Assembly (NCBI GenBank): GCA_036387335.1
Contig: DASVTZ010000230.1
Span: 1 to 51,618, forward strand
DNA from: Longimicrobium sp.
GTDB taxonomy: Bacteria > Gemmatimonadota > Gemmatimonadetes > Longimicrobiales > Longimicrobiaceae
Length of the DNA: 51,618 bases
Direction of reading: 5' to 3'
Every line of letters starts with the position of its first letter. The stretch's first letter is position 1. The position numbers were made by a program, and so were the translations under genes. A model generated the notes under the pieces. The model had not been told where the DNA came from and did no database searches. It worked only from the letters and a program-made list of their open reading frames with translations. Positions 34,854 to 41,940 of this stretch are shown piece after piece.

Positions 34854-34937
34854 CTCACACAGAGCCACAGAGCCACAGAGAGAACAGCAAAAGGAAGTTC
34901 TCCCTGGCTTGTAGTTCCCTCTGCGCACTCTGTGTGA
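34854..34937. repeat. dispersed inverted repeat, CTCACACAGAG variant
   Basis: An inverted repeat from CTCACACAGAGCCACAGAG to CTCTGCGCACTCTGTGTGA, lying 23 nt after the HTH gene and 35 nt before the M28 start. It matches the 3302-3386 copy more closely than the CTCACGCGGAG copies. Confidence 0.85.
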
Positions 34938-34972
34938 TGCTTTTCCCTCCACACCCCGAACCGATACGTGTC

Positions 34973-36670
34973 GTGACCCAGCATCGCATCGCACAACTCC
35001 TGGTCCTGGCCGCGATCACCGCAGCGCCGCTCGCCGCGCAGGATGGGCCGCGCACCCACACCGCCCGCCCCACCGCCGGGCCGATCCGCGTGGAGGACGC
35101 CCGCACGCGGCTGTACGTGCTGGCCGACGACTCCATGAAGGGACGCCAGTCCGGCGAGCGCGGCAACGTGATGGCCACCGAGTTCATCGCCGCCGAGCTG
35201 CGCCGTGCGGGGCTGGAGCCGATGGGCGACAACGGCACCTTCTTCCAGACGATCCCGCTGGTGCGCAAAGGACTGAACCCCGGCGCTGCCCTCTCGGTGG
35301 ACGGCTCCGCGCTGCGCCTGTGGACCGATTGGGCGCCGCTTCCCACGACGGAGGGCGTCTTCCCCTTCGCCCCAACCCTCGCCGCGCGGGGCAGGCAGGT
35401 GGTGTTCGGCGGGCGGATCGGGGGCGAGATGATCCCCGAGGCGGAGTCGCGCGGCAAGGTCGTCGTCCTCCTTCCGCCGTCCGGGGCGAACGGGCGGGGC
35501 GAGTACCGTTTCTGGCGCACGCAGAGCACCAACCCGTACCCCGCCGCGGCCGCCGTCGCCATCGCGTCGCTGGACATCTCGCCACCGTCGATCCTGGAAT
35601 ACGTGCAGGCGGAGCAGTCCGAGCTCGTCGATCCCGAGGCGGCACCCGCGGCGGGCGCGCCGGGGATGCTGGTGACGGCGGCGGTGGCGGAGCGCATGCT
35701 GGGCGCGGCGCCCGCCGGGCTGCGGCCGGGAGCGGCGGGGCGCACGATCACCGGCGCCTTCTCCTTCGCGCCCCGGCCGATGGAGGCACCCTCCCGCAAC
35801 GTCGTCGCCGTGCTGCGCGGGAGCGACCCGCGGCTGCGCAACGAGTACGTGGTCATCAGCGCGCACAACGACCACGTCGGGCGCGCGGCGGTGCCGCTGG
35901 ACCACGACTCGGTGCGCGCCTACAACCGCGTGATGCGTCCCCAAGGGGCCAACGATCCCACCGGCACGTCGACGCCGGCGCAGGCGTCCCGCATCCGCGC
36001 GCTGGCGGACAGCATGCGCCGCGCGCACGGCGGCACGCGGCTCGACTCCATCTTCAACGGCGCGGACGACGACGGCAGCGGCACGGTCGCGCTGCTGGAG
36101 ATCGCGGAAGCGATGGCGTCCGCGCCGCGGCCGCGGCGGTCGATCCTCTTCGTGTCGCACACGGCGGAGGAGGCGGGGCTGTACGGCTCGCAGCACTTCA
36201 CCGATCATCCCACCGTGCCGCTCGGCTCCATCGTGGCGGCGCTGAACATGGACATGGTGGGGCGCGGCCGGGCGGAGGACATCCGGGGCGGAGGGCCGCG
36301 TTACATCCAGCTGATCGGGTCGCGCCGCCTCTCCACGCAGCTCGGCGCCACCATCGATTCGCTGAACGCCGCACGCACGGAGCGGATGTCGATCGACTAC
36401 TCATTCGACGCGCCCCGTCATCCGCTGAACCGGTATTGCCGCAGCGACCACTTCATGTACGCGCGTTACGGCATCCCCATCACCTACTTTTCGCGCGGCT
36501 ACCACGTGGATTACCACCAGGTTGGGGATGAGCCGCAGTACATCGACTACGACGGGCTGGCGCGCGTGGCCGGCTTCGTACGCGACATTGCGTTCGCCGT
36601 GGCGAACCGCCCCGCGCGGCTGGTGGTGGACGGTCCGAAGCAGGACCCCAACGCTCCCTGCCGCCAGTAG
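34973..36670 (+). CDS. secreted M28-family metallopeptidase
   Basis: A 565-residue protein with a signal peptide (GTG start, MTQHRIAQLLVLAAITAAPL). It has an N-terminal region and a protease-associated-like insert (about 100-265), then an M28 zinc aminopeptidase core: VVISAHNDHVG, FNGADDDGSGTVALLEIAEA, VSHTAEEAGLYGSQHF, NMDMVGRG, and SDHFMYARYGIPITYF with GYHVDYHQ. The zinc ligands His, Asp, Glu, Asp and His are all seen in order. An in-frame ATG at 34934 would start in the repeat; the GTG gives the cleaner signal peptide. Confidence 0.9.
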   Translation: MTQHRIAQLLVLAAITAAPLAAQDGPRTHTARPTAGPIRVEDARTRLYVLADDSMKGRQSGERGNVMATEFIAAELRRAGLEPMGDNGTFFQTIPLVRKGLNPGAALSVDGSALRLWTDWAPLPTTEGVFPFAPTLAARGRQVVFGGRIGGEMIPEAESRGKVVVLLPPSGANGRGEYRFWRTQSTNPYPAAAAVAIASLDISPPSILEYVQAEQSELVDPEAAPAAGAPGMLVTAAVAERMLGAAPAGLRPGAAGRTITGAFSFAPRPMEAPSRNVVAVLRGSDPRLRNEYVVISAHNDHVGRAAVPLDHDSVRAYNRVMRPQGANDPTGTSTPAQASRIRALADSMRRAHGGTRLDSIFNGADDDGSGTVALLEIAEAMASAPRPRRSILFVSHTAEEAGLYGSQHFTDHPTVPLGSIVAALNMDMVGRGRAEDIRGGGPRYIQLIGSRRLSTQLGATIDSLNAARTERMSIDYSFDAPRHPLNRYCRSDHFMYARYGIPITYFSRGYHVDYHQVGDEPQYIDYDGLARVAGFVRDIAFAVANRPARLVVDGPKQDPNAPCRQ

Positions 36671-37013: not shown

Positions 37014-39176
37014 GTGAGCCTCGCCTCCCCATCCCGAACGGTCATCCCAGGCGCCGATCTCGCGCGCCTGGTACGCCTCGCTACCCGCCTGGTGGAGGCA
37101 CCCGCCGCCTTCCTCACGCTGGCGGACGGCACGACCGTGTCCGCGGGCACCGGCGACGACGACGCGTGGCGGACCCGGCGCGAGGCCCCGCTCGCGCGCA
37201 CGCTGTGCGGGCACGTGGTGGCCGAGGGGCGCCCGCTGCGCATCACCGACGCGCGCACGCACGAGTACGTGGACGAGGACCCGGGCCTGTGGCTGGGCGA
37301 GGGCGGCTACCTGGGCGTCCCCATCCGCACCGCCGACGGCGACACGGCGGGATCGCTGTGCGTGGTGGACTCGCGCCCGCGCAGCTGGACCGACGACGAC
37401 GTCTCGACGCTCGCCGGGGTGGCGGAGCTGGTGGCGCACGCCCTGCCCGGCGCGGGTATGGAGCGCGCGGCGGCCGGCTTCGTGGGGGCGCTGGGGACCG
37501 CGCGCGGGCGCATGTCGCTGCGCGTGCTGGAGAAGGCGGTGGAGACGATGCAGGTCGGCATCACCATCACCGACCTGGAAGGGCGCATCCTCTACACCAA
37601 CCCCGCCGAGGCGCGCATCCACGGCTACACCGTCGAGGAATTGCGCGGCAAGCACGCCCGCATCTTCGCCCCGCAGGACCGCCACCAGCCCTTCCAGGCC
37701 CGCGAGACGGACGGCGTGGTGAGCTGGAGCCGCGAGACGGTGAACCTGCGGAAGGACGGCACCCCCTTCCCCGTGCTCCTGCGCTCGGACGTGGTGCTGG
37801 ACTCGCGCGGACGCCCGGCCGGCCTCGTCACCTGCTGCGAAGATCTCACACAGCGCAAGGCGCTGGAGCGCAAGCTCCTCCACAACGCCTTCTACGACCA
37901 GCTCACCGGCCTTCCCAACCGCGGTCTCCTGATCCACCGCCTGGACCTGGCCGTGGAGCGCGCGCAGCGCGGCGACGGCGCCTTCGCGGTGATGGTGGCG
38001 GGGCTGGACCGCTTCAAGCGCGTCAACGACGGCATGGGCCGCGAGGCGGGCGACGAGCTTCTCTGCGCCGTCGCCGAACGGATCCGCGAGTGCATCCGCC
38101 CCGACTCCATGCTCGCGCGCATGGCCGGCGACGAGTTCGCCATCCTGCTGGACGGCGCCGAGGGCGTGGCCGACGCGGTACGCGTAGCCCAGGGCGTGCA
38201 GGCGGCGCTCTCGGCCCCCTTCCACCTCTCCGGCGGCGAGGTGTTCACCGGCGCCAGCGTGGGGATCGCGCTGTCGATGACGGGCTACGCCAAGTCCGAG
38301 GACGTGCTGCGCGACGCCGCCATCGCCATGTACCGCGCCAAGGACCGCGACCAGGGCCAGTACCAGGTGTTCGACCTGGAGATGCACGGCCACGCGATGG
38401 ACCGCCTGCGCCTCGAGGGCGACCTGCGCCGCGCGCTGGAGCGCGACGAGCTCACCGTCCACTACCAGCCGGTGGTGTCGCTGGAGACGGGGCGCATCGC
38501 GGGCTTCGAGGCGCTGGTGCGGTGGGAGCACCCGGAGCGCGGCACGGTCCTCCCCGACGTCTTCATCCCCCTGGCCGAGGAGACGGGGCTGATCCTCCCG
38601 CTGGGGCTGTACGTGCTGGAGCAGGCGTGCGCGACGCTGCGGCGCTGGCAGGACCGGCCGGGGTGCGAGCGCCTGACGATGGCGGTGAACCTCTCCGCGC
38701 GCCAGTTCACCCACTCCGACGTGGCGGCGAAGGTGGGCGAGGCGCTGCGCCGCTCCGGGATCGAGCCGGGCACGCTGAAGCTGGAGATCACCGAGAGCAT
38801 CGTCCTCCAGCTCACCTCCGAGGTCGCGGAGACCATGCGCCGCCTCAAGGAGTTCGGGGTGCAGCTCTACCTGGACGACTTCGGCACGGGGTACTCGTCG
38901 CTCTCGTACCTGCACCGCATCCCGCTGGACGCCATCAAGATCGACCGCTCCTTCCTGGGCCCCGACGCCGGCGCCGAGAGCCCGCACCTGGTGCGCACCA
39001 TCGTGGCCATGGCGCACGCGCTGGGCGTCGCCGTCGTCACCGAAGGAGTGGAGCGCGAAGACACCCTCGCCGACCTGCGCCGCCTGGGCTGCCAGTACGC
39101 CCAGGGCTACCTCTTCTCCCCCCCTCTCGACGAAGCCGCCGCCGGAACCTTCCTCGCCGCCGACCAGTGCTGGTGA
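37014..39176 (+). CDS. GAF-PAS-GGDEF-EAL cyclic-di-GMP phosphodiesterase
   Basis: A 720-residue signalling protein. A GAF domain (about 15-145) has CGHVVAEGRPLRI and YLGVPI; a PAS domain (about 170-285) follows; then GGDEF (about 290-455) and EAL (about 465-715). The GGDEF signature reads MAGDEF (370-375), and the metal-binding Asp before it is missing (MVAGLDRFK at 327-335, normally DLDRFK), so cyclase activity is probably lost. The EAL part is intact: GFEALVRWEHP (Glu499), MAVNLSARQF, LEITES, LDDFGTGYSSL, IKIDRSF, VTEGVE. The enzyme should degrade cyclic di-GMP, controlled by the GAF/PAS inputs. GTG start at 37014. Confidence 0.93.
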   Translation: MSLASPSRTVIPGADLARLVRLATRLVEAPAAFLTLADGTTVSAGTGDDDAWRTRREAPLARTLCGHVVAEGRPLRITDARTHEYVDEDPGLWLGEGGYLGVPIRTADGDTAGSLCVVDSRPRSWTDDDVSTLAGVAELVAHALPGAGMERAAAGFVGALGTARGRMSLRVLEKAVETMQVGITITDLEGRILYTNPAEARIHGYTVEELRGKHARIFAPQDRHQPFQARETDGVVSWSRETVNLRKDGTPFPVLLRSDVVLDSRGRPAGLVTCCEDLTQRKALERKLLHNAFYDQLTGLPNRGLLIHRLDLAVERAQRGDGAFAVMVAGLDRFKRVNDGMGREAGDELLCAVAERIRECIRPDSMLARMAGDEFAILLDGAEGVADAVRVAQGVQAALSAPFHLSGGEVFTGASVGIALSMTGYAKSEDVLRDAAIAMYRAKDRDQGQYQVFDLEMHGHAMDRLRLEGDLRRALERDELTVHYQPVVSLETGRIAGFEALVRWEHPERGTVLPDVFIPLAEETGLILPLGLYVLEQACATLRRWQDRPGCERLTMAVNLSARQFTHSDVAAKVGEALRRSGIEPGTLKLEITESIVLQLTSEVAETMRRLKEFGVQLYLDDFGTGYSSLSYLHRIPLDAIKIDRSFLGPDAGAESPHLVRTIVAMAHALGVAVVTEGVEREDTLADLRRLGCQYAQGYLFSPPLDEAAAGTFLAADQCW

Positions 39177-39255
39177 GCCGCGAACCTGATTCGCTTCGCG
39201 CGGTATCTGGTTTTACGATCGTTTGCGTGACGCGACTTGAAACCGGGGGGTGGGG

Positions 39256-39480
39256 ATGGCACCACGAGAGAAGGAGATCCACGAGCGGCTGGCGGCACTC
39301 ACTCCCGACGAACAGGATCGGGTGCTGGATTACATCCGGGAGCTGAGCGGCGAACCACGCCGGGGGGAACCGGGGCGCAACCTGTTGCGGTTCGCGGGGA
39401 TCTGGACCGAGGAAGAGGCGGATGAGATCAGCAGGGCGATCGAAGACGGGTGTGAGAAGGTGAATCCAGATGGTTGGTAA
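39256..39480 (+). CDS. VapB-type antitoxin, copy 1
   Basis: A 74-residue acidic protein: MAPREKEIHERLAALTPDEQ, LRFAGIWTEEEADEISRAIE, and a terminal CEKVNPDGW. The FxGIWxxEEADEI segment is usual for antitoxins that pair with PIN toxins. The N-terminal 35 residues form a helical DNA-binding/dimerisation part. A run of G before the ATG serves as Shine-Dalgarno; a GTG at 39250 is also in frame. It overlaps the toxin gene by 11 nt. Confidence 0.85.
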   Translation: MAPREKEIHERLAALTPDEQDRVLDYIRELSGEPRRGEPGRNLLRFAGIWTEEEADEISRAIEDGCEKVNPDGW

Positions 39481-39859
39481 AATCCTCCTCGACTCCAACT
39501 TCATCGTCGACCTGTTCAAGGGGGATCGGGCTGCGGAGGGCCTATTGGCCGCCGCCGAGGAGGTGTTCGTCCCCGCGATCGCGATGGGCGAGCTGTTCCA
39601 TGGCGCCGAAATATCGACTCGCCGCGAAGCCAGAATGGCGGAGGCCGAGGAATTCGCAGCCCGCAGAAAACTCCTTCCCTGTGACCTGGAAACCGCGCGC
39701 CACTACGGCGGAATCAAGGGCACCCTCAGGCTCCGCGGCCGGCCCATCCCCGACAACGATATCTGGATCGCCGCCCTGGCGCAGCAGCACGAACTCGCCG
39801 TCGCGACCAAGGACGCGCACTTCCGCGAGGTCGACGCGCTTCCCCTGCTGTCGTGGTAA
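39470..39859 (+). CDS. vapC: VapC-type PIN-domain toxin, copy 1
   Basis: A 129-residue PIN ribonuclease. The acidic residues are in place: Asp8 in ILLDSNFIVDLF, Glu of MGELFHGAE, and the Asp pair in IPDNDIWIAALAQQH with KDAHF near the end. Such toxins cleave tRNA or rRNA when the antitoxin is lost. It overlaps the antitoxin stop by 11 nt and ends in LPLLSW, the same as copy 2. Confidence 0.9.
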   Translation: MVGKILLDSNFIVDLFKGDRAAEGLLAAAEEVFVPAIAMGELFHGAEISTRREARMAEAEEFAARRKLLPCDLETARHYGGIKGTLRLRGRPIPDNDIWIAALAQQHELAVATKDAHFREVDALPLLSW

Positions 39860-39968
39860 GTAATCGGCTCGCCGTCGGGCAGTGCTGGTGACGGGGAACC
39901 CGTTTCGCATCTGCGCGGTATTTTTCCTTCAGGATGGGTTTGCGCGAGGAGACTTGCAACGGGGGGGG

Positions 39969-40214
39969 ATGACGACGCAGGAGAAGGAGATCCACGAGCG
40001 GCTGGCGGCACTCACTCCCGCGGAACAGGATCGAGTGCTGGGCTACATCCGCCAGATCAGCGGGGAACCGATCGGGTTGAAGCCGGGGAGCGATTTGCTG
40101 CGGTTCGCGGGGATCTGGACCGATGAAGAAGCCGATGAGATCAGCAGGGCGATAGAAGAAGGATGTGAGAGGGTCGATCTGGCAGGCTGGAAGGTAGATC
40201 TGGATGGTCGGTAA
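39969..40214 (+). CDS. VapB-type antitoxin, copy 2
   Basis: An 81-residue paralogue of 39256-39480. The first 60 residues align nearly throughout (KEIHERLAALTPAEQDRVLG, LRFAGIWTDEEADEISRAIE), but the C-terminus is longer and different (CERVDLAGWKVDLDGR versus CEKVNPDGW). As antitoxin C-termini contact the toxin, the tail difference may set specificity. The start is the ATG after a run of eight G. Confidence 0.85.
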   Translation: MTTQEKEIHERLAALTPAEQDRVLGYIRQISGEPIGLKPGSDLLRFAGIWTDEEADEISRAIEEGCERVDLAGWKVDLDGR

Positions 40215-40593
40215 GATCCTCCTCGATACGAACTTCGTCATCGACCTGCTCAGGGGCAGTCAGGCCGCTCAAAGCGTGGTGACGGCGGCTGAGCAGGTGT
40301 ACGTCCCCGCGACTGTGATGGGGGAGCTGTTCCACGGCGCTGAGGTGTCGGACCGGCGCGAAGCCCAAATGGCGAAGGCTGAGGAATTCGCGTCCCGCAG
40401 CAACCTCCTCCCGTGCGACCTGGAAACCGCGCGACACTACGGCGGGATCAGGGGCACGTTGCGGCGACGAGGGAAGCCGATTCCTGAAAACGACATCTGG
40501 ATCGCCGCCCTGGCGCAGCAGCACGACCTTGCCGTTGCGACGAAGGACGCGCACTTCCGACAAGTTGACGCGCTGCCACTGCTGTCCTGGTAG
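40204..40593 (+). CDS. vapC: VapC-type PIN-domain toxin, copy 2
   Basis: A 129-residue PIN toxin, the same length as copy 1 and matching it over all motifs: ILLDTNFVIDLL, MGELFHGAEVSDRREAQ, LPCDLETARHYGG, IPENDIWIAALAQQHDLAVA, KDAHFRQVDALPLLSW (part shown). The catalytic acids are conserved; the changes lie mainly in residues 18-35, where SQAAQSVVTAAEQV replaces DRAAEGLLAAAEEV. It overlaps its antitoxin by 11 nt and is followed by a strong terminator. Confidence 0.9.
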   Translation: MVGKILLDTNFVIDLLRGSQAAQSVVTAAEQVYVPATVMGELFHGAEVSDRREAQMAKAEEFASRSNLLPCDLETARHYGGIRGTLRRRGKPIPENDIWIAALAQQHDLAVATKDAHFRQVDALPLLSW

Positions 40594-40628: not shown

Positions 40629-40658
40629 GAGGCCGCCGTCCGGCGGCCTCTGCTTTTT
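40629..40658 (+). terminator. intrinsic terminator after vapBC copy 2
   Basis: A 9-bp perfect stem GAGGCCGCC / GGCGGCCTC with a GTCC loop, then TGCTTTTT. It ends where the convergent minus-strand gene stops (40657). Confidence 0.9.
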
Positions 40659-41658
40659 ACGCCGGCCAATCGCCGATCAGCTCGATCTCGCACAGCTCCG
40701 ATGGTCGCTGGGGATCGTCGGCGTCGACGACGGCCCAGAGGCGGTGGGTGTGGTCGCGCCAGAAGGCGATTCCCTCCACCTTGCCGTCAAAGGGCGCGCC
40801 CGCGGCGTCCACGAGCAGCGTCCAGCGGCCTCCCTCATCGTCCAGAACACCGAGCACCGAGCCGGCCACGCGGCCGTCGCGGGTGGCGTCGGGTGAGTCC
40901 TCCGCGGCGGCGCTGAAGTACACGGTGCCGCCGCGCGCCGTCGCGTCGGTGAAGCCCAGGCGGAGGCTGTCGATGGCGTCGAGGTGGTGCTGGACCACGT
41001 TAGCCGGGGCGGGCGGCGGGCTGGAAGGGTCGCCCAGGTAGGCGAGAAGCGCGGCCAGCGGGAGGTCGCAGGACGCATCGACCGGCTGGAGCCCATCGCG
41101 CGCGGCGCCGTTGCCACGGTTGAAGAGGCGCACCACGCTCCCGACCAGCGCGGCGCCCTCGATGTTCATCTCGCTCCCGCTGAAGCGCCGCTCCGCGCGG
41201 AGCAGGGCGTAGAGCGAGGATGCATCCACCATCTCCACCGCGGGCTCGGCGGTGTTCAGGCGGCGCGCCACCAGCACGCGCTCGCGCTTCCCGGTCGAGC
41301 CGGAGCCGAATGCGAGAAGCACCTCGGCGCCATCGTGCGGCACGGTGACGCACGCCTCCAGGTCCGCCTTGAGGTGCTTGTTGCCGCGCTCGTCGCCAAA
41401 CTGGCGCACCCCGCCCTCCGCCGCCTCCAGCGCGATCGCCCGCACCTCCATGGTGGCGGGATCGACGAGCGCGAGAAACGCGGCATCGTCCTGCACCACC
41501 GCCAGCCGCTCGCCCACCCACGCCATCCCCGAGCCCGCGCGCACGTGGGCCGGCCGGTCCAGCTCGGCGTCCGCGCCCTCCGTGTACAGGAGCGGCGCGG
41601 TGCGTAGAATCCGCGCCGTGAGGCGTGGGTCAGGCAGGATGGCGCGCGGGTCGGTCAT
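40657..41658 (-). CDS. hypothetical protein, probable beta-propeller-like
   Basis: A 333-residue protein I do not recognise with certainty. It has no signal peptide. Repeated strand-turn units such as GMAWVGERLAVVQDDAAFLA, VEGIAFWRDHTHRLWAVVDAD and AGSVLGVLDDEGGRWTLLVD (each in part) suggest a beta-propeller, as in phytase-like or SdiA-regulated proteins. The start at 41658 (MTDPRAILPD) is preceded by non-conserved residues if read further to 41709. It is convergent with the duplicated vapBC module and divergent from the RoxA-like gene. Confidence 0.7.
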   Translation of the reverse strand: MTDPRAILPDPRLTARILRTAPLLYTEGADAELDRPAHVRAGSGMAWVGERLAVVQDDAAFLALVDPATMEVRAIALEAAEGGVRQFGDERGNKHLKADLEACVTVPHDGAEVLLAFGSGSTGKRERVLVARRLNTAEPAVEMVDASSLYALLRAERRFSGSEMNIEGAALVGSVVRLFNRGNGAARDGLQPVDASCDLPLAALLAYLGDPSSPPPAPANVVQHHLDAIDSLRLGFTDATARGGTVYFSAAAEDSPDATRDGRVAGSVLGVLDDEGGRWTLLVDAAGAPFDGKVEGIAFWRDHTHRLWAVVDADDPQRPSELCEIELIGDWPA

Positions 41659-41940
41659 GGGCGCAGGTGGTTGCGGTGCGGCGAAGTTCGAGACGCGCGG
41701 GAGGTGCAAATCTCACGCGCGCCGAACCGCCCCCACGAGACACTTCACCGGCGAAACCGGGCGTGTACGTCCGCCAAACGTTTCCATAGCGGACACATAT
41801 CGGCCGACCGCATCCGAATAGAATGCTTGCATTCGGCCCATATTCCACCCAATGTGCGCCACATACGCGTCTTTTGGAGCGCGCGATGTTACAGGAGGTC
41901 ACGAGCGAACGTCCTCTCAACCCGGACCGGGAGTCGCGTC

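Follow-up and report, generated by a model that had tools for sequence, protein, structure and literature searches.

Tandem VapBC-type modules behind a GGDEF-EAL gene in Longimicrobium sp.: a probable old duplication carrying an EAL-derived scar

Genes and elements at the locus

We analysed a 51,618-nucleotide stretch of Longimicrobium sp. DNA (contig DASVTZ010000230.1, assembly GCA_036387335.1), referred to here as the window, in which two VapBC-type modules, A (39256-39859) and B (39969-40593), lie head-to-tail between a GGDEF-EAL gene and a convergent DUF6929 gene. The elements of the site are the following:

37014..39176, + strand: gene of a GAF-PAS-GGDEF-EAL protein, 720 aa (Pfam EAL 1e-75, GGDEF 2.9e-37, GAF_2 3.7e-17, PAS_9 3e-15)
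39153-39176, + strand: last 24 nt of the EAL gene, source of the scar; orthologues end in W-stop
39177..39255, + strand: leader of module A, homologous to 39892-39968
39256..39480, + strand: antitoxin A, VapB-like, 74 aa, C-terminus VNPDGW, 11-nt overlap with toxin A (the query of its Pfam scan began at the alternative GTG start 39250)
39470..39859, + strand: toxin A, VapC-like, PIN domain, 129 aa (PF01850, 2.3e-18)
39868..39891, + strand: scar copied from the end of the EAL gene (21/24 positions identical), beginning 8 nt past the toxin A stop
39892..39968, + strand: leader of module B, homologous to that of module A
39969..40214, + strand: antitoxin B, VapB-like, 81 aa, C-terminus VDLAGWKVDLDGR, 11-nt overlap with toxin B
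40172..40213, + strand: tandem repeat of 21 nt, imperfect (15/21), spanning the vapB/vapC overlap, probable source of 7 extra residues
40204..40593, + strand: toxin B, VapC-like, PIN domain, 129 aa (PF01850, 7.2e-19)
40657..41709, - strand: DUF6929/DUF6910 gene in convergent orientation, bordering the site on the right (candidate start codon; PF22000, 7.4e-66, matched on 40657-41622)

Upstream of the EAL gene and on the same strand, the window encodes at 34934-36670 a protein whose C-terminus reads QDPNAPCRQ; in genome G007 (L033) a protein sharing this C-terminus is found downstream of the EAL orthologue and convergent to it, a difference of side that suggests a local rearrangement.

Modules A and B have in common with VapBC type II systems a PIN toxin, a small antitoxin gene directly upstream and an overlap between the two genes. 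In type II pairs the antitoxin binds and inhibits the PIN ribonuclease, besides repressing its own leader, and, judging from the family, each module would probably work as an autonomous pair of this kind. Both toxins score far above the PF01850 cut-off (67.4 and 69.0 bits against 23.6), their nearest solved chains are VapC tRNA(fMet) endonucleases (e.g. 3tnd, 1.8e-11), and D8, E41, D97 and D115, which we take to be the conserved acidic active-site residues with a catalytic role, are invariant in all five toxins known from this site, in the window and its relatives. The tRNA(fMet)-specific NCBIfam models NF047863 (57.6/68.8 against 140) and NF010285 (39.3/46.1 against 143) were missed by the two proteins. 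As the initial annotation had noticed, the toxins are of equal length yet diverged, being 78% identical over 129 residues; elsewhere in the same genome two further toxin matches reach 30-31% identity, none of them closer.

The antitoxins differ from those of VapBC type II systems in being predicted all-helical and in matching PF02697 below the cut-off only (22.2 bits for antitoxin A and 18.8 bits for the other, against 27.9). The AlphaFold model of antitoxin B (mean pLDDT 77.2, pTM 0.38) places putative helices at residues 3-13, 17-31, 40-46, 52-65 and 71-74. A PDB sequence search with the antitoxin gave no credible match and, when the antitoxins of two relatives were scanned, one touched DUF2281 at 16.7 bits, the cut-off being 26.5. 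A defence-system label for the locus was discarded, PADLOC having matched none of the four proteins.

The leader of module A contains the inverted repeat GCGAA-CCTGA-TTCGC at 39180-39194, a candidate operator that is perfect in A and in the related genome G008, 4/5 in B and in the first module of genome G005 (u1) and 3/5 in the second (u2). A perfect 5-bp inverted repeat of this kind is held by 893 of 2000 random 80-mers; therefore, the palindrome was not accepted as an operator on its own significance and is a lead only.

The repeat, the scar and the site in relatives

Local alignment of A with B runs from 39153 to the toxin stop, unbroken through the leader and both genes, and the A/B homology ends to the left of 39153 and 39868. 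The segments 39153-39176 and 39868-39891 form a direct repeat spaced by 715 nt and identical at 21 of 24 positions, in agreement with the initial annotation, which had the second unit open at 39868 with the bases of the EAL end. The unit length of about 715 nt given there holds for the left part, the antitoxin blocks (39248-39477 and 39961-40190, 81% identity) being spaced by 713 nt, but not for the right part, because an insertion in antitoxin B widens the spacing to 734 nt in the toxin blocks (39456-39755 and 40190-40489, 76% identity). The upstream match was also confirmed to exceed chance: only one of 1,997,697 random 24-mer pairs from the window had 21 or more matches and, among 11 window words ending in CTGG-stop, a single pair of the 55 reaches 21, which is the highest value. 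A degenerate pattern fitted to both 24-nt copies and allowing up to 3 mismatches found just those two places (0/100 shuffles reached two).

Our genus set comprised ten genomes, including that of the window (G000), one of which (G002) has no clear EAL orthologue; a leader pattern matched, among these ten genomes, only at the leaders of A and B. Each of the eight EAL orthologues examined outside G000 closes with W-stop at the aligned position, six of them with no module behind, and this end is therefore native to the EAL gene. Inspection by eye of three unlinked modules of the same family (in G014, G010 and G004) revealed neither the site leader nor the 24-nt block. Thus, from the native W-stop end and the unlinked modules lacking the block, the sequence before B was copied from the EAL end and does not belong to the module, and since the homology crosses the non-coding leader without a break and ends 24 nt inside the EAL gene, module B carries an EAL-derived scar, a short passenger sequence. 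Independently of its origin, the scar contains at 39882 a GTG from which the antitoxin B frame is open (39882-40214), making a longer antitoxin formally possible; we judged this upstream start to be a likely effect of chance, the DNA being GC-rich.

Comparison of copy states among relatives, also put forward in the initial annotation, returned two modules at the site in G000 and in G005, one in G008, and no toxin match on the contig holding the EAL orthologue in the six genomes G001, G003, G004, G006, G007 and G009. The single module of G008 follows the same EAL gene, in the corresponding intergenic position, and represents the unduplicated state; directly 3' of its toxin, this locus (L023) also has a long inverted repeat of CACAGAGACACAGAGGCACAGAG and its complement. 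In a toxin tree modelled on a protein alignment (39 of 80 genome-contig loci, five site and three family sequences), the five toxins from the site fall into a single clade (93/94; 91% of bootstrap trees), within which A, B and G005u2 are grouped at 99/99 and A with G005u2 at 90/77. This clade and the states of the site are most simply read as a single local origin followed by multiplication. Taken together with the homology continuous from 39153 and the native W-stop of the relatives, the one-copy and no-copy states bear out the proposal of a tandem duplication with its breakpoint in the EAL gene.

It could be argued that the 24-nt sequence is the VapBC module's own and that the EAL gene had its end overwritten when a module first inserted, given that the block directly precedes the leader of both modules in G000. 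Such an origin is very improbable in view of the module-free EAL orthologues, all six of which end in W-stop at the aligned position, of the unlinked modules, where no similar block was seen by eye, and of G005u2, which is likewise without it. VapBC modules are mobile and the first module of G005 is divergent, its toxin being 58% identical to toxin A and 62% to toxin B, features that would also suit two independent insertions at one site with a chance or convergent 24-nt match. This is, however, barely conceivable when the homology takes in leader and EAL end as well, when A, B and G005u2 constitute one well-grouped clade and when a match as good is so rare among random pairs.

Age of the tandem state and probable remodelling in G005

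For the EAL gene of G000, synonymous divergence is 0.15 from G005 and 0.38 from G008, and toxin dS amounts to 0.78 for A-B, 0.45 for A-G005u2, 0.71 for B-G005u2 and 1.0-1.1 against G008. The toxin-to-EAL ratio is about 2.6-3.0 in both A-G005u2 and A-G008, taken as vertical pairs; these similar ratios and the intermediate A-B value would place the duplication after the G008 split and before the G005 split, provided that the pairs are indeed vertical. In the antitoxin tree B joins G005u2 (97/95), and the AU test rejects both A+B (p 0.028) and A+G005u2 (p 0.026); both this tree and the divergence estimates used a roughly trimmed antitoxin stretch of G005u1, lacking its final residues or carrying a few bases too many. 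The toxin DNA leaves the branching order unsettled when taken alone (AU test, A+B p 0.17, B+G005u2 p 0.168). Therefore, from the A-B divergence of 0.78 against 0.15 and the grouping of antitoxin B with G005u2, the tandem state probably predates the separation of G000 and G005.

The second module of G005 occupies the position of B, with the same 3' flank. Between the two G005 modules the EAL scar is absent (5/24 matches in register and no more than 10/24 within 6 nt), so that one has to suppose that it was lost or replaced, and this speaks against a simple history. Informative sites of G005u2 divide into A-like and B-like as 10:9 in the leader, 2:16 over the N-terminal half of the antitoxin, 10:0 over the stretch that follows, 4:2 over the antitoxin's C-terminal part and 49:24 in the toxin, and the maximum chi-square was attained in 34 of 10,000 shuffles. 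This distribution suggests that G005u2 is an A/B mosaic arising from exchange between A- and B-type copies, a pattern that in turn suggests that both types formerly coexisted in the G005 lineage. As a separate observation, the 3' halves of the two leaders in G005 (L022) are nearly identical, with coding parts only about 60% alike, which hints at a recent leader conversion.

Uneven local rates in A and B could mimic a mosaic where none exists. With three sequences only, short stretches and a tree left unsettled by toxin DNA, this objection has some substance, but the shifts from 2:16 to 10:0 and 49:24, together with the few shuffles attaining the chi-square maximum, make it the less favoured account of G005u2. 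Another possibility is a recent, G000-specific duplication, A and B having diverged fast after the G005 split and G005u2 being the unduplicated orthologue. The scar missing from G005 would suit this history, and the A+B clade is not rejected by toxin DNA; it is nonetheless quite unlikely, for toxin dS is larger between A and B than between A and G005u2, the protein tree groups A with G005u2, the antitoxin tree joins B to G005u2 and rejects A+B, and a 7-residue antitoxin tail is common to B and G005u2.

We therefore favour, with a probability of roughly 0.86, an old local tandem duplication from one module, with its left end in the EAL gene, and a later remodelling in G005. At the start, the GGDEF-EAL gene would have been followed immediately by one VapBC-type module that had a leader of its own. 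The sequence shows a tandem duplication of illegitimate type, extending from 24 nt inside the EAL gene to just past the toxin stop, which generated modules A and B and kept the EAL end as a short scar before B; to judge from divergence, this most likely happened before the G000 and G005 lineages split, and recombination would afterwards have remodelled the G005 array. The duplication first annotated here thus stands as regards its left end in the EAL gene but not as a recent or simple event, since it probably predates the G005 split and the G005 array is scar-less and apparently remodelled.

Tandem duplication has been suggested for the closely related pairs in the COG2880-PIN clusters of Archaeoglobus fulgidus (PMC2701414); compared with what that paper says of those clusters, the present site has kept a scar of the breakpoint, derived from the gene next to it. 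Tandem duplication of PIN toxin-antitoxin pairs is known from there as a suggestion, to which the present site adds the scar, a rough date and a remodelled relative. The A/B pair is a clean but essentially ordinary gene duplication, by an ordinary mechanism, in a soil-type bacterium.

The antitoxin tail and the significance of the site

The antitoxin tails differ in length and sequence, as previously annotated, the 74 residues of A and the 81 of B being separated by a single 7-residue extension. We compared 83 relatives (3 family sequences and 80 genome-contig loci retained out of 329), none of which has the extension elsewhere: a scan near the toxin start covered 81 of the 83, with 78 antitoxins ending in W-stop and 3 in WK-stop, and the two outside the scan, read by eye, end in WK-stop (L099) and W-stop (L114). 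In a 28-row alignment, seven residues past the final tryptophan occur in antitoxin B and in G005u2 only, and C66 and W74 are invariant in 28/28 antitoxins (alignment A2, A and B included). PIN-associated antitoxins with an invariant cysteine and a terminal tryptophan form a family poorly covered by Pfam. The extension matches the preceding 21 nt at 15 of 21 positions, a score equalled at 86 of 5000 random places, which makes a 21-nt repeat across the vapB/vapC overlap likely, short of certain; it is probably by such a repeat that the extension of antitoxin B arose, with the 11-nt overlap retained despite it. The AlphaFold model of antitoxin B puts residues 75-81, the added ones, outside its predicted helices and scores them low.

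According to a review (PMC7354431), partner choice is affected in some VapB antitoxins by the C-terminal 30 residues and in Haemophilus VapB1 by one tryptophan. Set beside the determinants that the review describes, the extension reported here lies beyond the terminal tryptophan of the relatives. Since VapB C-terminal residues are reported to affect partner choice, the B tail is a reasonable place in which to seek a separate specificity, and we consider this longer tail the best candidate for a putative pairing difference. With toxins 78% identical and a 7-residue extension, separate specificity of pairs A and B is plausible. It is tempting to go further and to regard the site as a single-origin VapBC array that renews itself by tandem duplication and by exchange of antitoxin and toxin segments among its copies, in which a 21-nt repeat across the vapB/vapC overlap shifted the antitoxin end beyond a near-invariant tryptophan and gave one pair a new partner specificity, a speculation that we hold to be rather doubtful.

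With one-copy, two-copy and remodelled states in relatives, the site is a roughly dated, scarred example of in-place toxin-antitoxin multiplication. Modules A and B and the G005 mosaic offer a system for asking when a duplicated antitoxin stops neutralising the sister toxin, and whether a short tail extension suffices to end that neutralisation.
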